A stretch of 61,140 nucleotides of DNA, taken from the IMG/VR virus record IMGVR_UViG_3300011113_000522, positions 1 to 61,140 of that record; one strand, written 5' to 3'. The notes below the pieces were generated by a model. It did no database searches, was not told where the DNA came from, and saw only the letters and a program-made list of their open reading frames with translations. Shown piece after piece: positions 3,354 through 53,341 of this stretch; positions within the stretch are counted from its first letter, which is position 1; each line of letters opens with the position of its first letter. The DNA is from a virus. A program made the position numbers and the translations under genes.

Positions 3354-3563
3354 ATGTCGTATTACACAGCAAAAGTCCAATTGATTGACACGGTTGATAC
3401 ACCTAAAGGTCCAAAAGAAAAGCGAAGCACTGAAACCTATCTCGTAGAAGCGCTTTCAGTAACAGAAGCAGAAGCTAAAGTTGTTGATGATTTTAAAGGT
3501 TACACGTTTGACTTTGAAGTTAAATCAGTTTCAGCAAGTAAAATCATTAAAATTATTGACTAA
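3354..3563 (+). CDS. DUF4494-like protein
   Basis: 69 residues. The pattern TETYLVEALSVTEAEAKVVDDF followed by a beta strand fits DUF4494, a short family common in Bacteroidota genomes and their phages; function unknown. First gene of a tightly packed operon (next ATG overlaps its stop) behind a TTGGAT-type promoter, so probably expressed early. Confidence 0.65.
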   Translation: MSYYTAKVQLIDTVDTPKGPKEKRSTETYLVEALSVTEAEAKVVDDFKGYTFDFEVKSVSASKIIKIID

Positions 3564-9591: not shown

Positions 9592-10272
9592 TTATTTACC
9601 AGATGGAGTATATCGGCCAGAGGCAGGAGCTTCTCCTGTAGCCGTGGAGTTTGCCAGCAACTTGTCACGCATATCCGAGGTCCCTTGATCATTAGCCATT
9701 TTTAGTATACTACCACCTTGACTACTCACTACGTTAGGTATCGACGGATACCATACAACGTTGGATTTTACACCAGCTGCAACCTTACCGTTATGTTTAT
9801 ATGTACCAGCTGCGAATTGAGCTAATGTAGTAGGATTATTCAATGACTCCCAAAAATTGGTATTTGCTGTGTCACCAAAATTATTACCATAATAAACTAA
9901 ACAATTTGTCCAACATACAGTCAAGCTTGGACTCATATACCAAGTTGCGCCTTTTGGCCAAACTGCAAATATATCTGCACCATACAAACCTTTAGCCCAG
10001 TTATCATATGGTTGAGTATATGATGCTCCTTTTTTAATTATTCCTAATGATAAGTATCCATATGAATTTTCTTCAGCTAATGCATCTTTAGCAGTTGTTA
10101 ACCAAGCCGGATCAGTTCCTGTTTGTTCCGTTAAATGTTGCAGTACGGATTCGCGCAAACCATACTCATTAATGTCGGCCATGATTGAGTTGTAAACCAA
10201 TTGTCGTTTTGCTGATTCGGATAAATTTTTGGTACCAAATCGAAGCATGTTTTCTGAAAGTAAATTTTTCAT
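9592..10272 (-). CDS. Probable packaged protein, paralogue of the 10339 gene
   Basis: 226 residues, minus strand. Leader of 49 residues ending HLTE|Q, then a mature domain starting near TDPAWLTTAKDALAEEN. It shares many segments in order with the neighbouring gene: DPAW(L/M)TTAK, KGATWY(M/V)SPSLTV, AAGTYKH(N/K)GK, SNVVWYPS, QGG. The predicted cleavage points fall at the same place in both, just before the conserved domain. The fold is not recognised; many Trp/Tyr and Gly suggest a beta-rich domain. Strong AAGGAAA ribosome-binding site. Probably a capsid-internal protein; function unknown. Confidence 0.65.
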   Translation of the reverse strand: MKNLLSENMLRFGTKNLSESAKRQLVYNSIMADINEYGLRESVLQHLTEQTGTDPAWLTTAKDALAEENSYGYLSLGIIKKGASYTQPYDNWAKGLYGADIFAVWPKGATWYMSPSLTVCWTNCLVYYGNNFGDTANTNFWESLNNPTTLAQFAAGTYKHNGKVAAGVKSNVVWYPSIPNVVSSQGGSILKMANDQGTSDMRDKLLANSTATGEAPASGRYTPSGK

Positions 10273-10338: not shown

Positions 10339-11001
10339 TTATTGGCCAGCTGGCACGTATTTAGTACCAGCACCTGGTCCATATGGTTGACCGTCAACAT
10401 GTTTTAATGCTGCGCGCATTGCATCACCACTATCACCTAATGGCAAATGTGTATATATACCACCTTGTGTAACTACGGCGTTAGACAAAGAAGGATACCA
10501 TACAACATTAGACTGTATGCCGGTAACCGGTTTTCCTTTGTGTTTATATGTACCCGCTGCTAATTGAGTCGCCATGGTATTATTACTTAATGCACCAGAA
10601 TCAATGAATGCATTCCAACCGCCAAAATCATCATAATTATAAACTTTTGCAGCACAAAATGCTACGGTTAGGCTTGGAGATACATACCACGTGGCACCTT
10701 TAGCTACAGCAGCAAATTTAGTTTTTTCCAATCCATAACTTGTAATCATATCGCTAGGTTGTGTATATGTTGCTCCTGGTTTGAGTATTGCAACTGATAA
10801 AAATCCATCATTTTTTTCAGCTAATACATTTTTAGCAGTTGTCATCCAAGCTGGATCTGCTGCGGCTTCTGCTTCCATTATTAATCCTTGCCGTACAGCT
10901 CCATGCAAACCATGCTCATTAATGGTTTCTATGACTGATTTAAGAACCGATTGTCTTTGCATTGCAAATGGCAACGCGTTTTTTAAAAATAAATTTTTCA
11001 T
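10339..11001 (-). CDS. Probable packaged protein, paralogue of the 9592 gene
   Basis: 220 residues, minus strand. Leader of 43 residues ending LIME|A, followed by an Ala/Glu stretch and the conserved mature part DPAWMTTAKNVLAEKN. The same conserved blocks as the 9592 product occur in the same order, while leader and loops have diverged, which implies an old tandem duplication. No motif identifies an enzyme. AAGGAAA precedes the ATG. Co-transcribed with the 9592 gene (66 nt apart). Probable internal virion protein; function unknown. Confidence 0.65.
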   Translation of the reverse strand: MKNLFLKNALPFAMQRQSVLKSVIETINEHGLHGAVRQGLIMEAEAAADPAWMTTAKNVLAEKNDGFLSVAILKPGATYTQPSDMITSYGLEKTKFAAVAKGATWYVSPSLTVAFCAAKVYNYDDFGGWNAFIDSGALSNNTMATQLAAGTYKHKGKPVTGIQSNVVWYPSLSNAVVTQGGIYTHLPLGDSGDAMRAALKHVDGQPYGPGAGTKYVPAGQ

Positions 11002-13384: not shown

Positions 13385-13529
13385 TCCTACACCAAAAGGA
13401 TTTAAAAAGTTACAATGCAAATATTGCGATGATATTTGCCAAAAAGTAGATGTTAATGCAACTGCAGTTACCTGTTTCCGTTGTGTATCAAAACTTGTCA
13501 ATGGACAACAATTGGAAATACGAAAATAA
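13362..13529 (+). CDS. Small zinc-ribbon protein (55 aa)
   Basis: 55 codons from a GTG at 13362, in a frame different from and overlapping the end of the membrane protein. The product has two Cys pairs, CKYC-DDIC and CFRC, spaced like a zinc ribbon, plus a basic N-terminus (MKRNTKSSPTPKG). No ATG start exists; GTG 13362 or a TTG two codons upstream are the only choices. The following gene's promoter starts inside its last codons. Likely a nucleic-acid- or protein-binding zinc ribbon; partner unknown. Confidence 0.65.
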   Translation: MKRNTKSSPTPKGFKKLQCKYCDDICQKVDVNATAVTCFRCVSKLVNGQQLEIRK

Positions 13530-13540
13530 ATCAATATAAT
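13512..13540 (+). promoter_or_regulatory. Sigma70-like promoter TTGGAA-N17-TATAAT, leaderless
   Basis: TTGGAA at 13512-13517, exactly 17 nt, perfect TATAAT at 13535-13540. A transcription start 6-7 nt downstream coincides with the ATG at 13546, so the mRNA would have no leader. Confidence 0.75.
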
Positions 13541-13545
13541 AAGTT

Positions 13546-14323: not shown

Positions 14324-14641
14324 ATGTTATTTTTAATCATAACAAACATACTGCTACTAGGAGTTGCGGCATACTTAGCATATCGCGTATGGTATCTTGC
14401 CGGAGCTGTTGCTGACATACAAGAACAAGATGAAGATGTAACTGAGTATATTGAATCATTGGAAGTAACCAATCAATTCATGTATACGAAAGTTGTTGAA
14501 GCATATGAAAACATGAAACGTGTTGATTTGCGAGGTGCTTTTGCTGCAGAAGATGAAGTGGGAACTACATTTGATATGTTAAAAGAAATAGTTGAAACAT
14601 TAAAAGATCAATTCAATGCCGAGAGCCAAGAAAACAAGTAA
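14324..14641 (+). CDS. Single-pass membrane protein conserved in T4-like phages
   Basis: 105 residues from ATG 14324, preferred over ATG 14291 because GAGGA precedes it and the product then starts with a clean N-terminal membrane helix (FLIITNILLLGVAAYLAY). The C-terminal part contains DLRGAFAAEDEVGTTFDMLKE, which resembles a segment (DxRGxFExDDEVGxxF) found in small T4-like phage proteins of unknown function. Overlaps the sigma gene by 26 nt. Confidence 0.7.
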   Translation: MLFLIITNILLLGVAAYLAYRVWYLAGAVADIQEQDEDVTEYIESLEVTNQFMYTKVVEAYENMKRVDLRGAFAAEDEVGTTFDMLKEIVETLKDQFNAESQENK

Positions 14642-15314
14642 AACATATTTTACTAAAATAACAGACCTAGCAATTGCTGGTTATAATAAAAGTCCAGATG
14701 TTGCTACGCGTGAAAAAATATATCGCAGATTTATTTATCCTGCATTCATGAAACTTACTGAAAATATCATCAACAAAGTTAAACCTGATTATATTGATTC
14801 GTCATTTCAAGACTTGCAAACCGATTTGGTTACATATCTAACTGCACGTTTAGATAAATTTAATCCATCTGCAGGCAAAGCATATTCATATTATACTCGC
14901 ACTTCATTTAATTACTTGATTGCAGAAAATCAAAAAGCTTACGCAAAAATAAAATCAGATGCACTTGAACTAGATATTGATGAACAACGCAATGTTGTTA
15001 TAGAAATATCCAATGCGGACATGTTGGAAACATTGTGCGAATTTATGGATGCATACATTACATATTGTTATGAAAATCTAAATTATATTTTTACTAATCC
15101 TACAGATATACATGTAGCAGATTCAGTATTACATATTTTTGAAACTCGTGCAAACATTGACAACTTTAATAAAAAAGCATTGTATATTTTTATTCGCGAA
15201 CGTACCGGTTTAGACACATCTAATATTACGCGCGTAGTTAAAACACTTAAACAAATATACGATGCAAAATTTAAAGAGTACGAACAAACAGATTTCATAA
15301 AATTACCTTTTTGA
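14616..15314 (+). CDS. 55: Late-transcription sigma factor, gp55-like
   Basis: 232 residues. The segment LDKFNPSAGKAYSYYTRTSFNYLIAENQK (about residues 80-108) is the region-2 signature of T4 gp55 and related phage sigma factors (KFDPxxGxAFxYFTxxxxNxxIxxxxK). gp55 binds host RNA polymerase in place of the main sigma factor and directs it to the late promoter box TATAAATA, with the sliding clamp as activator. The gene is expressed with the HD hydrolase, upstream of the structural module it would control. The many ATATTTAT motifs nearby are the natural candidate targets. Confidence 0.85.
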   Translation: MPRAKKTSKTYFTKITDLAIAGYNKSPDVATREKIYRRFIYPAFMKLTENIINKVKPDYIDSSFQDLQTDLVTYLTARLDKFNPSAGKAYSYYTRTSFNYLIAENQKAYAKIKSDALELDIDEQRNVVIEISNADMLETLCEFMDAYITYCYENLNYIFTNPTDIHVADSVLHIFETRANIDNFNKKALYIFIRERTGLDTSNITRVVKTLKQIYDAKFKEYEQTDFIKLPF

Positions 15315-17653: not shown

Positions 17654-18178
17654 ATGGATTCAAAAACATTAATAAAAGCACTTAAAATCGCTGTGCGAGA
17701 AGTTATAAAAGAAGAATTAACTGAAATTCTTCGAGAAGGATTACAATCTACTATTACAGAAATATCGCAACCAAAAAAGCCAGTTAGAGTAGATGCAAAT
17801 AAATCGGTACATGTTCAACCCAAGATAGTTAATGAGTCAGTAAAAAAATCAAAGGTACAATTCACTGATAATAAATGGGCATCTATTTTAAATGAAACGG
17901 ACGTATTAACAGAAGATCAACCATTAGCATTAAATAGTTTTCGCGATATAATGAACGAAGGAATGGAAGAAATTCGAATGACATCTCGAGATGCAGTTAA
18001 TTTTGGAGCGATGCGACAAAATATGAAAGAGGCAATGGGGATAGCCCCATCAGCACCAAAAATTATGGAAGATCCGGAAACTGGTAAAGTATTTGATGTA
18101 CCGCAGGAAGTTCAACAAGCAATGACTCGAGACTATTCTGCATTAATGAAAGCAATTAACAAGAAGAAAGGAATGTAA
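17654..18178 (+). CDS. Hypothetical virion-associated protein
   Basis: 174 residues. N-terminal amphipathic helix rich in Lys/Glu (IKALKIAVREVIKEELTEIL) with several ΨxE sites (for example LRE|G), a flexible middle and a conserved-looking C-terminal part (DPETGKVFDVPQEVQQAMTRDYSALM). Stop overlaps the gp25 start. Not recognised; inferred to be a virion or assembly protein. Confidence 0.65.
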   Translation: MDSKTLIKALKIAVREVIKEELTEILREGLQSTITEISQPKKPVRVDANKSVHVQPKIVNESVKKSKVQFTDNKWASILNETDVLTEDQPLALNSFRDIMNEGMEEIRMTSRDAVNFGAMRQNMKEAMGIAPSAPKIMEDPETGKVFDVPQEVQQAMTRDYSALMKAINKKKGM

Positions 18179-28060: not shown

Positions 28061-28078
28061 AATTGACATTGATTTAAG

Positions 28079-28114
28079 CCCTGTTATATTTATATTAAAT
28101 GTAGCAGGGTTTTT
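28079..28114 (+). terminator. Terminator hairpin whose loop holds a late motif
   Basis: CCCTGTTA (28079-28086) pairs with TAGCAGGG (28102-28109; one G-U pair) and is followed by TTTTT. The loop contains ATATTTATATTAAA, the late-type motif for the next gene. One element thus ends one transcript and begins the next. Confidence 0.7.
28086..28094 (+). promoter_or_regulatory. Late-type motif ATATTTATA
   Basis: Core lies in the loop of the 28079-28114 hairpin, 26 nt before the ATG at 28121. Confidence 0.65.
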
Positions 28115-28120
28115 ACTATA

Positions 28121-30272: not shown

Positions 30273-32618
30273 ATGTCAATGCTTTTAGAAAATCTCATAC
30301 GAACATACTTAATTGAAGGACGTACGGTCGCTAAAATACGCGGTGCATCTGCAAAAGATACTGCAGCAGCTCGTGCTGCAGGAGCGGTATATGCATACAA
30401 TGTTTTAGTTAAAGGGACTAAAAATCAAGATGAAATTATTGATTTAGTTCAAGCGGCAACATTAGCATCTACTGGCGTTGACACAGAAAATAGAATAGCA
30501 GTTGGACAGTCTAGCAAATTTGCACGTGGTGATTATGTTTATGTAATGAGTGACCCATTACCGAAAAAACGACAAATTATCGTTGTAAGAATTTTTAAAT
30601 TAACTGATATTACAAAAAATCATCTCAATTTCACGAATGTTATAGCTAGTTATGAACTTGCTGGAAGTATCGGAGGAGCTGATTTTTTTACTGCAACTAT
30701 GTTTAAACAACTCTTAATTGGCGAAAAACAAGATACAACTCCCGTTGATGATTTAAAAAGTAAAGATTCAGAGGCAAGTGATGTAATTAAACAGGCATCT
30801 GACTTGTTAGCAGGAAATGAACAAGTTACAAATCATGAATTAAAACGTGATGGTATAGTTGTTGGTAAATTCAATGGTACTATAGATAAAAATGGATTAC
30901 CGCTTGAAGGAAAAGCAGAGTTAAATGATGGACAAGTATTTGATGGTAAATTCAAAGATGGTAAATTTATTACTGGTTCTTGCAAGCAAATAATATCTAA
31001 TGGTGATATTTTTGAAGGTGAGTTAACGGATGGTGTACCAACTGCAAATGTTACGCATCATATAACAAAACCGGATGGTAAGTATTATGAAGGTACAGTT
31101 AATTCAAGCTTTTTACCTATTGACGGTAGTGTATATTCATCATCTGCTAAAACCGAAAAGATTGGTGATTTTATATTAGGAGCATGGACTGCAGTTGAAA
31201 AACCTTTATTTACTAATCAACAAATTATTGATGCAACAAACTCATCAAAATATAGTGATGCAACAAAATATTTTCAACAGCTGATGGTTGATAAAATTGG
31301 TACTCAACCTGAAATTGTTTCGTTACTTGCGGATACGGATAATAATATGAGTAATACATATACTAAAGTAAAAAACAACGTTGATGGTAAATGGGGTGAC
31401 AATTCTAAATCATTAACAAAAGATATGCAATTCATATTAGGATTACCAGAAACTGGTATTGTTACTTCTGATTTCATAGATAAAATTGCTAACTTTGACA
31501 AACAAACGGTATCATCTACAGAAACAACAAAAACAGAATCTATATTAAATGTAAAAAATACGTTGTTAGAGCAAATTGATCTAGATTCGATTAGAAAACG
31601 AGCGGCTATTAGAAAAGTTACACCACCGCCGCCGACACCAAAACCTAAACCAACGCCGACACCAAAACCAAAACCTAAACCTAAACCAACGCCGACATCA
31701 TATAAAGATCAATATATTTTACAAAAAGATTATGAACTTCAATACGTCAAAGGTTCAGCTGATAAATTTTTGTCTGCATTAAAAGCTTGGGAGTCTCCTG
31801 CAGGTTATGCAAGTTCAATGGGATGGGGCGAAACACCTAGTACCAGATCGTTTGCGAAACAAAAAATATTTGATCGTAAAACAATTAAAATACCAAAAGG
31901 TACTATAGTATATATACAACCCGGTAAAGTTATTATTAATGTACCAAGTGAAAGTGATACAGGTGGTATTATACCCAATTGGCATTTTGAATTTACATAT
32001 ACGGATAATTTCTTAAGAACAAATTCATATTATAACATATGGAAACAATACGATACCCAACAAAAACAAGAGTGGAAGACTGCAAAAAAGTTAGGAATTC
32101 AAAACGTTAAATTTGCGGAACCAAAATATCAAAATGATAAATTAATCAAATTTTTGAAAACATTGAATCCATTAGTTCAAAACAGAATAAAATTTGAAAA
32201 AGAATTGTCTAAAGAACAAAGAATTCAATTGAATGATGAGTTTAATCGATGCATACAAATTGCGAAAGATTTTTATGAATTATTTGAAAAAAATCCTAAA
32301 AAATATTTTGGTCGTTATAAAGGTTCATCATGGATTCCAGGAGACCAAGATTTACCCGGAGCATTGAACTATTTGCAAGATGCTGTTAGGGATGCATATG
32401 AAGATGAATTTAAATTATTAACAAAATCAAGCAATTTAGATATACAAAATAATGTAAAAAAATTACACGATATATATACTGGCGTACAACAATATATAAT
32501 TGATTTAATTAGAACTAACGGAAATAAACGTTTAATTACAACGTTTAGAATTAAATTAGTTCATCCATATGATTCAAAGAAGAATACTAACGTAACAATT
32601 AAGTTTGATTATTTATGA
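30273..32618 (+). CDS. Multidomain packaged protein with MORN-like repeats
   Basis: 781 residues. Leader MSMLLENLIRTYLIE|G (E15). Residues about 189-291 hold MORN-like repeats (LNDGQVFDGKFKDGKF; SNGDIFEGELTDG; PDGKYYEGTV). A second leader-like site, NTLLE|Q (E433), lies before a Pro/Lys/Thr linker (about 450-476), so the protein may be cut into two parts. The C-terminal region includes NPKKYFGRYKGSSWIPGD (about 672-689), also present in the next gene. No catalytic site recognised. Stop overlaps the next ATG by 4 nt. Role: probably capsid-internal and ejected. Confidence 0.65.
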   Translation: MSMLLENLIRTYLIEGRTVAKIRGASAKDTAAARAAGAVYAYNVLVKGTKNQDEIIDLVQAATLASTGVDTENRIAVGQSSKFARGDYVYVMSDPLPKKRQIIVVRIFKLTDITKNHLNFTNVIASYELAGSIGGADFFTATMFKQLLIGEKQDTTPVDDLKSKDSEASDVIKQASDLLAGNEQVTNHELKRDGIVVGKFNGTIDKNGLPLEGKAELNDGQVFDGKFKDGKFITGSCKQIISNGDIFEGELTDGVPTANVTHHITKPDGKYYEGTVNSSFLPIDGSVYSSSAKTEKIGDFILGAWTAVEKPLFTNQQIIDATNSSKYSDATKYFQQLMVDKIGTQPEIVSLLADTDNNMSNTYTKVKNNVDGKWGDNSKSLTKDMQFILGLPETGIVTSDFIDKIANFDKQTVSSTETTKTESILNVKNTLLEQIDLDSIRKRAAIRKVTPPPPTPKPKPTPTPKPKPKPKPTPTSYKDQYILQKDYELQYVKGSADKFLSALKAWESPAGYASSMGWGETPSTRSFAKQKIFDRKTIKIPKGTIVYIQPGKVIINVPSESDTGGIIPNWHFEFTYTDNFLRTNSYYNIWKQYDTQQKQEWKTAKKLGIQNVKFAEPKYQNDKLIKFLKTLNPLVQNRIKFEKELSKEQRIQLNDEFNRCIQIAKDFYELFEKNPKKYFGRYKGSSWIPGDQDLPGALNYLQDAVRDAYEDEFKLLTKSSNLDIQNNVKKLHDIYTGVQQYIIDLIRTNGNKRLITTFRIKLVHPYDSKKNTNVTIKFDYL

Positions 32619-33382
32619 TACGATTAACGCATTTACTTACAGAACAAACCGACGCTGTTAAGTTTTGTAAAAAAAATATTTTATCTAAACCACAGTTTTC
32701 TAAAGAAAAATGGAGTGAAATTGGCGTATGGGGAAATCGAAATATTGCTGGCACTTCAACAAAATCTCAGCATGCAGTTGGAAATGCTATTGATTGGCAC
32801 GGAGCAAAAGGTGTCGGCGATCCGGTTATGCAAGAATTAGCAGATTATTTAGTAGCAAATCATTCTGTATATTCTGCTGAAAATATAATCTACAATAGGC
32901 GCATTTGGAATTCTCCAAAAGGCTGGCACGTATATAAAGGAGAAAATCCACATATAGATCATGTACATATTGATTTTAAAACTACCGCTAAATTAAAAAA
33001 TAACAATGTTCAAAAAAACAATGACATTGTGCAACAAGCGCTATGGGATATGTATAATAAAACAACAAAAAATCCCGAAAAATATTTTAAACAATATAAA
33101 GGCCAATGGTGGATACCTGGAGATGATAAACCAGAAGCTGCTGCAAAAAAATTAAAAAGTTTATTTTTTAATACGTGGTATGATCGTTTACTTAAAATAT
33201 ATTCATTTGGTACTGCTGAAGATAAAAAAAATATCAATTGGTTAACTAAAGCCGTTAACGATGTAGCAAAGTTAATTGAAACTGGCCAGTCTGGACAAGT
33301 TCCTGTAAAATTTTTAAAATGGAATGCACAAAATCAAACATATAAATTAATCAAGCAAAAGTTCAATTGGACTTATATGTAA
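32615..33382 (+). CDS. M15-like peptidoglycan peptidase, probably packaged
   Basis: 255 residues. Leader MIRLTHLLTE|Q (E10), a likely prohead-protease site. Residues 50-120 hold the metal ligands of the D-Ala-D-Ala peptidase fold: S-x-H53-x2-G-N-A-I-D60 and H113-I-D-H116-V-H118. Such enzymes cut peptidoglycan cross-links or stem peptides. The C-terminal half carries the module NPEKYFKQYKGQWWIPGD (153-170), shared with the upstream MORN protein. It could locally open the wall during DNA entry, replacing the lysozyme domain missing from the gp5-like hub. Packaging is inferred from the leader. Confidence 0.75.
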   Translation: MIRLTHLLTEQTDAVKFCKKNILSKPQFSKEKWSEIGVWGNRNIAGTSTKSQHAVGNAIDWHGAKGVGDPVMQELADYLVANHSVYSAENIIYNRRIWNSPKGWHVYKGENPHIDHVHIDFKTTAKLKNNNVQKNNDIVQQALWDMYNKTTKNPEKYFKQYKGQWWIPGDDKPEAAAKKLKSLFFNTWYDRLLKIYSFGTAEDKKNINWLTKAVNDVAKLIETGQSGQVPVKFLKWNAQNQTYKLIKQKFNWTYM

Positions 33383-34015: not shown

Positions 34016-34044
34016 TTGGATTCCTTACAGTTTTTTATTATAAT
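34016..34044 (+). promoter_or_regulatory. Sigma70-like promoter TTGGAT-N17-TATAAT, leaderless
   Basis: TTGGAT at 34016-34021, 17 nt, TATAAT at 34039-34044. A start 6-7 nt downstream falls on the GTG at 34050, so the primase mRNA would be leaderless and begin with GTG. Confidence 0.75.
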
Positions 34045-34049
34045 ATAGT

Positions 34050-46867: not shown

Positions 46868-48709
46868 ATGCCTACATTAAGAAATCGTTTAAGAAATTTA
46901 TTTGCAACGAATGTTATAGTTCGTGCATATGGTAAAGACAAACTTCGAGTTGTCGACACAAATAGATTGCAAAGTGTTGGTAATTTGAATCAATCAAAAA
47001 TTGCTGACCGATATACTAGATTACATGGTGCTAATAAACACCGAGTTGGTGGAATGGGCGGCTATGATTCAAACTACTATATGCATCAAAATCGTATGCA
47101 GCTATATGCTGATTATGAAATGATGGATAGAGACCCTATTATTAGTTCTGCTTTAGATATTTATTCAGATGAATCTACATTAACCAATCAATTTGGAGAA
47201 ATTTTATCTATCAAATGTAATGATTCTAAAATTCAAAAAATTCTATATAATTTATTTTATGATATTTTAAACATCGAATTCAATTTATGGACTTGGATTC
47301 GTAACATGACAAAATATGGAGATTTCTTTTTAAAATTGGATATTGCAGATGGATATGGAATTGTTAATGCACGGCCATTTTCTAGTTACGAAATCGAACG
47401 ATGGGAAGAATTCAATGAAGCTACGGGCGAATATGATATCAAGTTTAAACATGTAGCTGAACAACAACGAGGTTATGATGTTTTCGAAATTGCACATTTC
47501 CGTATGCTATCAGATTCTAATTTTTTACCATATGGTAGATCCATGTTAGAAGGTGCACGAAAAGAATTTCAAAAGCTCATGATGTTAGAAGATGCAATGT
47601 TAATACATCGTATCATGAGAGCTCCAGAAAAACGTATTTTTAAAATTGATATTGGTAATATTCCGCCAAATGAAGTTGATAGTTTCATGGAACAAATTAT
47701 CACTAAAATGAAAAAAATACCACACATTGATCCACAAACTGGTAATTACAATTTAAAATTTAATCTTAACAACATGCTAGAAGATTATTATTTACCCGTT
47801 CGTGGGGGAAATTCAACTACTACGATTGATACGTTGCCAGGTATGACATTTACAGGAATTGATGATATCAATTATATCAAACATAAAATGATGGCAGCTT
47901 TAAAGATACCTAAACCATTTTTAGGTTATGATGAAGGAGTTGAAGGTAAAACAACTTTAGCATCCATGGATATTCGTTTTGCTAGAACAATTGAACGTGT
48001 ACAACGTATTGCATTATCTGAATTAACTAAAATTGCAATTGTACATTTATATTCTCAAGGTTATGAAGGTGAAGAATTAATTAGTTTTGAATTAGATTTA
48101 ACCGCGCCATCAATTATATACGATCAACAAAAAGTTGCACTAATGACTGAAAAAATGACATTAGCAACTGCAATGAAAGATTCAAAATTAGTTTCAGACA
48201 AATATATCTATGAATTCATATTTAACATGTCCGAAGATGAATGGTTACAGCAACGTACAGATGTTGTAGAAGATCTTAAACTTCGATTCCGACAAAATCA
48301 AATCGAACAAGAAGGAAATGACCCAGTAGTAACAGGAGCATCATATGGTACACCGCATGATTTAGCATCAATGCATATGTCATCAGATGATGTCGAAACT
48401 AAAAATAAAGGTGGACGTCCCAAAGAAGGAATTAAATTTGGACAGCATAAAAATGAATTTGGTTGGGACCCGACAGGCGGAAAAACAATTCAGCAAACAT
48501 ATGATCCGGGTAATGAACGCACGGCGTTTTTTCCAGATCTTCGGGCAAGTAAAACAGTAAATAAGCCATCGGTTGCTACAGAAAGTTTCATTAAAAAAAT
48601 TAAAACAAAAAAAGGTCCTAATATTATTTCGGAATCTTTAAAAGATAATAATTTAAACAACGCGGATAATGATTCTGGCACAATGTTAGATGAAAATAAC
48701 ATTTTATAA
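46868..48709 (+). CDS. 20: Portal protein (gp20-like)
   Basis: 613 residues, comparable to T4 gp20 (524). T4-type portal features: YADYEMMDRDPIISSALDIYSDEST, FNLWTWIRNMTKYGDFFLKLDI, RIMRAPEKRIFKIDIGNIPPNEV and GKTTLASMDIRFARTIERVQ. It forms the dodecameric ring at the capsid vertex through which DNA passes and nucleates head assembly. The C-terminal extra 90 residues (about 520-613) are Gly/Lys-rich and probably flexible. It follows the terminase directly; in T4, sheath and tube genes lie between. Confidence 0.94.
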   Translation: MPTLRNRLRNLFATNVIVRAYGKDKLRVVDTNRLQSVGNLNQSKIADRYTRLHGANKHRVGGMGGYDSNYYMHQNRMQLYADYEMMDRDPIISSALDIYSDESTLTNQFGEILSIKCNDSKIQKILYNLFYDILNIEFNLWTWIRNMTKYGDFFLKLDIADGYGIVNARPFSSYEIERWEEFNEATGEYDIKFKHVAEQQRGYDVFEIAHFRMLSDSNFLPYGRSMLEGARKEFQKLMMLEDAMLIHRIMRAPEKRIFKIDIGNIPPNEVDSFMEQIITKMKKIPHIDPQTGNYNLKFNLNNMLEDYYLPVRGGNSTTTIDTLPGMTFTGIDDINYIKHKMMAALKIPKPFLGYDEGVEGKTTLASMDIRFARTIERVQRIALSELTKIAIVHLYSQGYEGEELISFELDLTAPSIIYDQQKVALMTEKMTLATAMKDSKLVSDKYIYEFIFNMSEDEWLQQRTDVVEDLKLRFRQNQIEQEGNDPVVTGASYGTPHDLASMHMSSDDVETKNKGGRPKEGIKFGQHKNEFGWDPTGGKTIQQTYDPGNERTAFFPDLRASKTVNKPSVATESFIKKIKTKKGPNIISESLKDNNLNNADNDSGTMLDENNIL

Positions 48710-49601: not shown

Positions 49602-50278
49602 AATCATTTCTTAAAGAAATTGAATCAAAATTCATAGAATTAGAAGATTCATTAGATACAGATAATCAACAAGACGCTGTTATCGATGACAATGTCGAAT
49701 TAGGTGAAATGTCTGCAACAGGCGGCGTTGCTGGATATAATATTCCAGCTGCATTTGCTAAACCTGGCAAATGGCAAAATAAAACAAAAACTTATGAATC
49801 AGTAAACTCATCGCCGACGTGGAAATTAGGAACATATCAAACTCCGGAAGATGAAGAAGAAGAATATACTGATAAATTTCCGTTTGCAATCGATGATAAA
49901 AAATGGCAACATAAAAATTATGAATACCCATCTATAGATTTAACAGACACGCCAGGACTATCTAAAAGAAAAGATAAAACTCAAAAACCAACTGTAGCAG
50001 AAACAATGGATGCAAAATATGAATCACTTATTGAATCATATCGATCATATGCAACAGGCGATGCAAAAACAACTCCGGAACAAAAAATAAAACATACAAT
50101 AAAAGAAGTTGCAAAAAAACTTCAAGAAATTGAACAAACAATAAACCATGCATCTCGTTTAAAATCAGAATCAGGTGTAGCACGCAATGGATATGGTTCG
50201 GCAGTAGAATCAGCATTAACAAAAATTTCAGAACGATTGATTAAAATATCAGAGCGCGTAAGAGCATTAGGGGAATGA
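49598..50278 (+). CDS. Hypothetical prohead-module protein
   Basis: 226 residues. Acidic N-terminal part with the segment EMSATGGVAGYNIPAAF (about 37-53), a Trp/Tyr-rich middle (KWQNKTKTYESV; KKWQHKNYEYPS) and a helical C-terminal domain. Not assigned; lies between the portal and protease genes, so likely an internal core or assembly protein. Confidence 0.65.
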   Translation: MKSFLKEIESKFIELEDSLDTDNQQDAVIDDNVELGEMSATGGVAGYNIPAAFAKPGKWQNKTKTYESVNSSPTWKLGTYQTPEDEEEEYTDKFPFAIDDKKWQHKNYEYPSIDLTDTPGLSKRKDKTQKPTVAETMDAKYESLIESYRSYATGDAKTTPEQKIKHTIKEVAKKLQEIEQTINHASRLKSESGVARNGYGSAVESALTKISERLIKISERVRALGE

Positions 50279-51289: not shown

Positions 51290-51318
51290 TTGGATATTAA
51301 ATTTAATTTTATTATAAT
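51290..51318 (+). promoter_or_regulatory. Sigma70-like promoter TTGGAT-N17-TATAAT, near-leaderless
   Basis: TTGGAT at 51290-51295, 17 nt, TATAAT at 51313-51318. Predicted start about 51325, 2 nt before the ATG at 51327. It drives the 51327 gene and the bS21 homologue, up to the terminator at 52075. Confidence 0.75.
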
Positions 51319-51326
51319 ATAGGTGC

Positions 51327-51806
51327 ATGATGAACAAATTTAAAAAATTATATAAAGAATTTTTCGGATTGAAAGAACAAACGCAGCCAACTACTGGTGG
51401 CATATCAGTATCGCCAGAAAAATTAAATGATCCAAATGTTCAAAGTGCATTAAAAAAAGGTATTAAAGTTAGAGTTGAAGGCGAAATAGATGAAGCACAA
51501 TTAGTTAATAATTTAACTGATTATCAAGGAGGAGTAGAATATATTTTACGAGACCCAGCAACAGCTCAGCAGACCGCTCAAGAAATTCAAGAATGGGCAG
51601 AACGCAAAGGATTTACCGTAATTAAAAAAACTATATCGCCGTCAGGTAAAATTGGTTATTTTTATTTTAGATTGGGTCAAGATCCAGCATTGGAATCACA
51701 AAAGATTCAAGGCTATTTAGCACAAAAACCAGAACTAAAACATTTTAGATTCAATGTTAAAAATCAAGCATCTAAACAAACTAATCGACCACAAGGAAAA
51801 ATTTAA
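51327..51806 (+). CDS. Hypothetical protein
   Basis: 159 residues, ATG 51327 or 51330. The N-terminus (NKFKKLYKEFFGLKE|Q) is a basic amphipathic helix ending in a possible LxE site; then a mixed alpha/beta domain (GFTVIKKTISPSGKIGYFYFRLG). First gene behind the TTGGAT-TATAAT promoter. Ends 9 nt before the bS21 gene. Function unknown. Confidence 0.65.
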   Translation: MMNKFKKLYKEFFGLKEQTQPTTGGISVSPEKLNDPNVQSALKKGIKVRVEGEIDEAQLVNNLTDYQGGVEYILRDPATAQQTAQEIQEWAERKGFTVIKKTISPSGKIGYFYFRLGQDPALESQKIQGYLAQKPELKHFRFNVKNQASKQTNRPQGKI

Positions 51807-51815
51807 TAGTTATAT

Positions 51816-52052
51816 ATGAATAAAAAACAAAAACAACACCAATGCATCGTGCCAGGCAATGCAGCAGCCGTTAATGTAGTAAATCAAGACTTAGGTTTTG
51901 CATTAAGAACATGGAAACGCAAAGTAAAAGCTATCGGAGTTTTAGAAAAAACTAGAGATAACAAAGAATTTATTAAACCTAGCGTTAAACGTAGGCAACA
52001 ACTTAAAGCTGCACAATTCATTCAAAAAATTAAAGATTCGAATGCAATTTAA
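51816..52052 (+). CDS. Ribosomal protein bS21 homologue
   Basis: 78 residues. The segment ALRTWKRKVKAIGVLEKTRD, followed by KEFIKPSVKRRQQLKAA, aligns by eye with bS21 (ALRRFKRxxEKAGVLxExRxxExYEKPxxxRKRxKA). bS21 lies in the small subunit near the mRNA exit and the 3' end of 16S rRNA; in Flavobacterium ribosomes bS21 helps to hide the anti-Shine-Dalgarno. Phage-encoded bS21 is known from other phages. Here an N-terminal extension of about 25 residues is present. Early-type promoter and a strong terminator bracket it with one partner gene. Confidence 0.78.
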   Translation: MNKKQKQHQCIVPGNAAAVNVVNQDLGFALRTWKRKVKAIGVLEKTRDNKEFIKPSVKRRQQLKAAQFIQKIKDSNAI

Positions 52053-52074
52053 GTTTTTTTAAAATTATTTTTAG

Positions 52075-52103
52075 GCCCTAACAAAAAAAGTTAGGGCTTT
52101 TTT
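52075..52103 (+). terminator. Strong rho-independent terminator
   Basis: GCCCTAAC (52075-52082), loop of seven A, GTTAGGGC (52090-52097), then six T. It ends the bS21 operon and insulates the scaffold/capsid operon. Confidence 0.92.
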
Positions 52104-52124
52104 ACTGGTTTTTCAATTGATGTT

Positions 52125-52133: not shown

Positions 52134-52238
52134 TTAGAATACGCTATTCATTCTTTATATAGCGTTTATATGTAATTATTTATATTCTATTAAGATTCTA
52201 ATAATCTTATTTCCAAAAAACAAATTTAAGGAGAAAAA

Positions 52239-53309: not shown

Positions 53310-53341
53310 AACAAAAAAAAAACAAAAACAAAGGAAAAAAG

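Follow-up and report, generated by a model that had tools for sequence, protein, structure and literature searches.

Phage-encoded bS21 and Shine-Dalgarno-led late genes in a T4-like virus suggest that a virus changes how signal-blind ribosomes choose messages

In Flavobacterium johnsoniae, ribosomes that lack bS21, or only its C-terminus, favour mRNAs with a strong Shine-Dalgarno sequence (SD) while SD-less mRNAs lose, and the Y54A variant likewise brings a gain for strong-SD mRNAs (PMC9976891). The host bS21 gene, rpsU, often carries an exceptionally strong SD in Bacteroidia; bS21 is also by far the ribosomal protein that phages carry most often, and McNutt et al. 2023 drew attention to phages in the context of bS21 and SDs (PMC9976891). 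Both Mizuno et al. 2019 (PMC6375957) and Chen et al. 2022 (PMC9723584) put forward the idea that a phage bS21 replaces the host protein. The latter authors described a phage-specific change in the N-terminal helix of bS21 near the mRNA, and found bS21 transcribed with late genes in other phages, which counts against the switch proposed below (PMC9723584). The results of the current analysis concern a bS21 gene in a 61,140-base stretch of viral DNA (the window; IMG/VR record IMGVR_UViG_3300011113_000522, 33.6% GC). The window is a fragment of a T4-like myophage, with genes for T4-type TerL, portal (gp20), protease (gp21), capsid (gp23) and baseplate wedge proteins (phrog_2, 213, 207, 138 and 219, respectively). 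Megablast of 24 kb of the window against phages gave no match, nor did tblastn against phages with the protein encoded at 30273. The nearest cultured kin of the major capsid protein (MCP) is that of Flavobacterium phage immuto (57% identity), and for TerL Microcystis phage Mel-JY01 ranks first (58%) and immuto second (54%).

The bS21 gene lies among the head genes, as the second gene of a short operon (Table 1). Its product belongs to the bS21 family (Pfam PF01165, 38 bits against a cut-off of 27, E 8.8e-11; phrog_21469, 'ribosomal protein S21'), which together with the promoter motif and the terminator-like hairpin bears out the first-pass annotation of a bS21 homologue placed after TTGGAT-N17-TATAAT and before a terminator. 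The closest solved structure is F. johnsoniae bS21 (7JIL). The C-terminus is Bacteroidia-like, with Phe68 where F. johnsoniae has Tyr54; the aromatic residue that stacks on A1534 in Bacteroidia-type bS21 is therefore kept as Phe68, Tyr itself being changed, and the close relatives that cover this position have Phe or Tyr there. The first 9 and last 3 residues of the F. johnsoniae row in our bS21 alignment are provisional, and the Tyr54 equivalence rests instead on the match to the solved structure. The basic N-terminal extension MNKKQKQHQ is among the most conserved parts of the family. Of 43 distinct sequences upstream of orthologous operons, 41 retain TTGG[AT]-N16-21-TAnnnT and 3 contain the late motif; the promoter of the bS21 operon is old. 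The start of the window bS21 gene has no SD. The same is true of 67 of the 68 lineages with a Tyr/Phe-type bS21 (one strong SD; mean pairing energy +0.09 kcal/mol), compared with -4.26 kcal/mol for all genes of the same loci under automatic choice of starts. Since an activator of SD reading must itself be made without an SD, the SD-less start of the phage gene fits a switch in translation initiation.

Table 1. Positions of the features discussed, numbered along the window
Feature	Position	Strand	Details
Head block order	TerL 45241, portal 46868, protease 50280, bS21 51816, capsid 53342	all same strand	
Operon promoter TTGGAT-N17-TATAAT	51290..51318	+	TTGGAT 51290-51295, TATAAT 51313-51318; -10 end 8 nt before ATG 51327
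Partner protein, first operon gene	51327..51806	+	159 aa; begins with MMNKFKKLYKEFFGLKE/Q, then a variable linker, with a ferredoxin-like domain at the C-terminus
Phage bS21	51816..52052	+	78 aa; second gene of two-gene operon inside late head-gene block
Intrinsic terminator-like hairpin and T run	52073..52104	+	10 pairs, hairpin 52073-52099 then TTTT; ends bS21 operon
DUF4494 gene, host indicator	3354..3563	+	heads SD-less early operon; immuto orthologue CDS 33120-33317
TTGGAA-N17-TATAAT, predicted leaderless mRNA	13512..13545	+	box ends 5 nt before ATG 13546
TTGGAT-N17-TATAAT, predicted leaderless mRNA	34016..34049	+	box ends 5 nt before GTG 34050 (DnaG-like primase)
SD AAGGAG, prohead scaffold-like gene 52239	52226..52238	+	-8.2 kcal/mol vs +2.0 in immuto orthologue
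SD AAAGGA, major capsid protein gene 53342	53330..53341	+	-6.1 kcal/mol vs +1.6 in immuto
Late promoter example TATTTATATnAAA	56049..56074	+	directly followed by AAGGAG and ATG (56075)

The partner gene at 51327 is present in 41 of the 68 loci with a Tyr/Phe-type bS21 and in none of the 106 other loci. In T4-like phages, capsid-targeting peptides are cut after LxE. The N-terminus of the partner protein resembles such a peptide, with an LxE cleavage motif, and the protein may be packaged in the capsid. Comparable N-termini ending in [LI]xE, reminiscent of the T4 peptides that direct proteins to the capsid and are cleaved by the prohead protease, occur at 2467, 30273, 32615, 50280, 50912 and 51327 (ISE/Q, LIE/G, LTE/Q, LTE/S, ILE/T and LKE/Q, the slash marking the cut). 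The predicted model of the partner is ferredoxin-like and matches bS6, including that of Bacteroidia ribosomes, and ACT domains alike (E ~1e-3); part of the comparison used provisional sequences for three bS6 proteins and the ACT domain. No sequence match to the bS6 family PF01250 was obtained at E 10. The partner was accordingly rejected as a relative of bS6, with ACT domains scoring equally and a sequence match absent, and is kept as a lead.

A generic sigma-70 scan of the window gave no excess over shuffles, and the promoters were therefore assessed by their conservation and by counting exact motifs. TTGGAW-N15-18-TATAAT occurs three times in the window against 0.29 expected, a count reached in 1 of 100 shuffles. 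TTGGA...TATAAT boxes ending 3-9 nt before a start number 17 against 0.44 expected, often as TATAATAAGTTATG. Several of their mRNAs, with boxes ending 5-8 nt before the start codon, are probably leaderless, since transcription starting 6-8 nt past the -10 box gives a leaderless or nearly leaderless mRNA with no room for an SD; part of the early lack of SDs is probably simple promoter geometry. The earliest promoters are probably another class, TTG-N20-TAnnTTTA, and for this reason the TTGGA...TATAAT class may be 'middle'. In G001, a near-complete relative with an 86% identical capsid protein, a run of small genes on the reverse strand at 11-19 kb (L085-L092), several of them after the near-identical promoter TTGGATCGCATT...TAAATTTAAGTATAATTAAAAA, is probably an immediate-early region. 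TATTTATATnAAA precedes many late genes, its first base lying mostly 20-27 nt ahead of the start. On the coding strand the late motif is TATTTATA, which becomes the T4 late octamer TATAAATA when reverse-complemented, and a similar motif is found in immuto. At 28070-28120 a late promoter TATTTATATTAAA is embedded in a terminator-like hairpin, GCCCTGTTA...TAGCAGGGTTTTT, immediately ahead of a gene, an arrangement kept at 49850 in G001. The early operon gene at 14616-15314 encodes a 232-aa protein with an immuto orthologue (33%); its position suggests a late sigma factor like gp55, with no family match.

The first-pass annotation had described the six genes behind TTGGA-type promoters as lacking an SD, that of 51327 being very weak, and their pairing energies agree: +1.6 (3354), +0.8 (8963), +1.8 (11127), +0.8 (13546), +1.5 (34050) and -3.0 (51327), a range of +1.8 to -3.0. 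The SDs that it listed at 1089, 2282, 12195, 15339, 52239, 53342, 56075, 57310 and 60260 are all present, and late genes without one, which it had placed at 46868 and 55097, are found among promoter-proximal late genes at 17654, 30273, 46868 and 55097. Two neighbouring minus-strand genes outside the late block (9592-10272 and 10339-11001), with alike N-termini and the common leader AAGGAAACAAACAAATG, are SD-led. The comparison of SD strength between promoter classes that it called for was made with pairing energies against the 16S tail, pooled over the window and three relatives. With 'early' resting on promoter type, mean energies were -0.1 kcal/mol for early promoter-proximal genes, -1.7 for early operon-internal, -3.7 for late promoter-proximal and -3.5 for late internal genes, and about -1.7 for a mock window. 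Early and late genes thus differ, both when promoter-proximal (p=1e-10) and when internal (p=1e-3), these p values being optimistic as the records share orthologues. In G001 alone the promoter-proximal contrast holds (p=1.5e-4) and the internal one is not significant (p=0.18), while in the window the genes inside early operons are also without SDs (p=0.007).

The association of bS21 with SDs extends well beyond the window. Six capsid queries were used to collect the loci surrounding the capsid gene, which were thinned at 90% MCP identity to 174 lineages; loci scored as lacking bS21 were kept only if they extended 2.6 kb or more upstream of that gene, absence being scored within contigs and not always whole genomes, and gene starts were called by one simple procedure, identical for both groups. 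Strong SDs precede 52% of the genes near the MCP gene in the 104 lineages with bS21 (mock 13%) and 12% in the 70 lineages lacking it (mock 15%; p=1e-25), and because the mock windows are nearly equal, composition is not the cause of the difference. At the MCP gene itself a strong SD is found in 91% of lineages with Tyr/Phe-type bS21, 94% of those with other bS21 types and 4% of those lacking bS21, and a peak of SD cores at -9 to -13 is confined to the loci with bS21. Lineages with Arg or Lys at position 54 use SDs just as the Tyr/Phe type does. The capsid tree of the 174 lineages has at least 9 changes in bS21 presence, and a dependent two-trait model on the MCP tree fits better than an independent one (LR 46.1, p=2.4e-9, a test that can be driven by few events), with fitted rates of SD loss of 9.0 in the absence and 0.1 in the presence of bS21. 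In five of the six smallest mixed clades the side lacking bS21 has no SDs. Well-supported branches provide four independent pairs, too few for a sign test, in which SDs change the same way as bS21 in 2.3 on average and the opposite way in none. The exceptions are two lineages with SDs in which bS21 was not found on partial contigs (L204 and L457), and one with bS21 and no SDs (L295). Among reference phages, immuto lacks bS21 over its entire 160,410-base record and has no SD preference (7% strong against 19% mock), and across 25 orthologues shared with the window the mean SD energy is -3.7 kcal/mol in the window and -0.7 kcal/mol in immuto (p=0.001). No preference is seen in crAss001 (21% strong SDs, mock 31%) or RM378 (32%, mock 29%) either, and strong SDs amount to 70% in T4 and 61% in Mel-JY01, which has bS21.

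The host of the window virus is likely to belong to Bacteroidota, as suggested by the DUF4494 gene, the Flavobacterium-phage kin of the MCP, the Bacteroidia-like C-terminus of bS21 and the early promoters that larger relatives share with immuto. Among 14 control genomes, the DUF4494 protein at 3354 has a match in Bacteroides only. The pattern TTG-N18-21-TAnnTTT[AG], which is close to the Bacteroidota -33/-7 promoter pattern, occurs 7 and 11 times in two larger relatives (0.7 and 0.5 expected) and 28 times in immuto. Scanning GTDB genomes with the bS21 alignment found no relatives, and the capsid alignment found 10 contigs (37-63% identity), three in Flavobacteriales/Flavobacteriaceae bins and the rest in unlikely bins, which is weak as host evidence. 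Two T4-like phage contigs, L410 and L414, come from one Flavobacteriales MAG (NAT55), one having bS21 and SDs and the other neither. Mel-JY01 (PP395634; L119), although labelled a Microcystis phage, clusters with Bacteroidota phages in both TerL and capsid, which are 55-58% identical to those of the window, and its host label may need a check.

We propose that these features are best explained by a virus-driven switch in translation initiation, to which we give a probability of somewhat under 60%. The Bacteroidia 30S subunit hides its anti-SD, with bS21, bS18 and bS6 jointly holding the 16S 3' tail, and ignores SDs. Phage bS21, made from the middle-type operon at starts that need no strong SD, would be translated by this unmodified, SD-blind ribosome and would then enter 30S subunits, which would pair with SDs. 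Late head and tail mRNAs, with AAGG or AAGGAG starting 9-13 nt before the start codon, would gain over SD-less host mRNAs. For the fuller statement, that a phage bS21 translated without an SD turns SD-blind Bacteroidia ribosomes into SD-reading ones, and that SDs placed mainly on late genes set late viral mRNAs apart from nearly all host mRNAs, we see the odds as even. The first-pass annotation had likewise suggested that phage bS21 may replace the host protein, free the anti-SD and favour late mRNAs. It is supported in part, by the likely Bacteroidota host, the co-occurrence of bS21 with SD-led genes, the difference between promoter classes and the SD-less bS21 start; exchange of the protein, exposure of the anti-SD and the gain for late mRNAs are inferred. 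An altered residue at the anti-SD contact is not supported as the cause, and loss of the aromatic that holds the anti-SD was rejected: comparison at the Tyr54 position finds Phe or Tyr kept (Phe68 in the window), and SD use is independent of residue 54, being the same in Arg/Lys lineages. As the aromatic is kept, the anti-SD would have to be freed in some other way, for which the partner protein and the basic stretch conserved at the N-terminus of bS21 are candidates. Judged on sequence alone, phage bS21 could keep the anti-SD hidden just like the host protein, and this counts against the switch.

In another reading, along the lines of Chen et al. 2022, phage bS21 takes over the ribosome and goes on hiding the anti-SD, phage mRNAs are favoured through its divergent N-terminal part by some other means, and the late SDs serve subunits lacking bS21, for example when host bS21 runs short. 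The aromatic kept in all close relatives and the conserved MNKKQKQHQ extension agree with it, as does the reading of strong SDs by F. johnsoniae subunits without bS21 (PMC9976891). However, restored hiding would disfavour the SD-led late genes just when they are needed, and SD use tracks possession of the gene, so that we consider this reading improbable. We give somewhat more credence, while still holding it unlikely, to a difference of hosts, whereby phages with bS21 infect SD-reading bacteria outside Bacteroidia, their kin lacking bS21 infect Bacteroidia, and bS21 serves some other purpose, for instance the supply of a subunit that is limiting. The bS21 types with Arg or Lys at position 54 do look non-Bacteroidia, a third of them have an SD on bS21 itself, one relative of this kind has Microcystis recorded as its host, and the hosts of the window's clade are known by inference. 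Against this, that clade has DUF4494, immediate-early promoters like those of Flavobacterium phages and the Bacteroidia-like bS21 C-terminus, and the two contigs from one Flavobacteriales MAG differ in bS21 and SDs jointly, with the proviso that such bins can be mixed. A difference of hosts also fails to account for the lack of SDs on bS21 and the TTGGA-promoter genes in genomes whose capsid genes carry one in 91% of cases.

There might also be no switch at all, early mRNAs being leaderless or very short-leadered and late SDs reflecting high expression, in which case promoter geometry and expression level would suffice. The 17 TTGGA...TATAAT boxes at 3-9 nt before starts (0.44 expected) are what this would predict. 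It is nevertheless very improbable, because the internal genes of early operons in the window are also without SDs, if less clearly so in G001, because bS21 is itself an internal gene and yet SD-less, and because relatives lacking bS21 have the same kind of late genes with no SDs.

For the role of phage bS21 in infection, the link gives a concrete, testable answer in Bacteroidota phages, namely that bS21 goes with SD-led late genes and its absence with SD avoidance, and the comparison can be repeated on public contigs. If the proposed switch is true, it would represent a specialised ribosome made by a virus, and would offer a route to gene expression in Bacteroidia apart from host mRNAs.

Several described systems share part of this arrangement. 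In the autoregulation of rpsU in F. johnsoniae, bS21 content likewise decides SD reading, but the SD of the host gene is extra-strong and its product comes from bS21-less ribosomes, whereas the phage gene has no SD (PMC9976891). The bS21 of Pelagibacter phage HTVC008M shows that a phage bS21 enters E. coli ribosomes, although there the host is of another phylum and a GFP assay gave almost no activity for purified ribosomes containing the phage protein (Mizuno et al. 2019, PMC6375957); tblastn with the window bS21 in the phage collection did not find this protein. Mel-JY01 has bS21 in the same slot and SD-led late genes, but differs in Lys at position 54, an SD before bS21 and the host label. 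The Bacteroidetes myophages of Chen et al. 2022 are similarly large myophages of 31-34% GC with bS21 among terminase, portal, protease and capsid genes, a Bacteroidetes-like bS21 with an aromatic at position 54, and a proposed take-over of the ribosome (PMC9723584). Their genomes are 293-331 kb, and their bS21 is encoded on the other strand from the structural genes and appears in late transcripts (PMC9723584), whereas the window bS21 is on the structural-gene strand, in its own TTGGA-TATAAT operon and with an SD-less start; the window shares the terminase-portal-protease-capsid placement but, without the reverse-strand position, falls outside clades a-e of Chen et al. Their text mentions the SD or anti-SD in three places, none of which analyses SDs on phage genes (PMC9723584), and in a literature search that left subscription papers largely outside we found no report on SDs of the genes of bS21 phages. 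Immuto (vB_FspM_immuto_2-6A, MW353175, Immutovirus) has the T4-like head and tail genes (TerL 54%, MCP 57%), DUF4494 and the portal-to-capsid order of the window, and differs from it in having neither bS21 nor an SD preference. The association of bS21 with SD-led late genes, the SD-less start of bS21 and this contrast with sister phages free of bS21 appear to be new.
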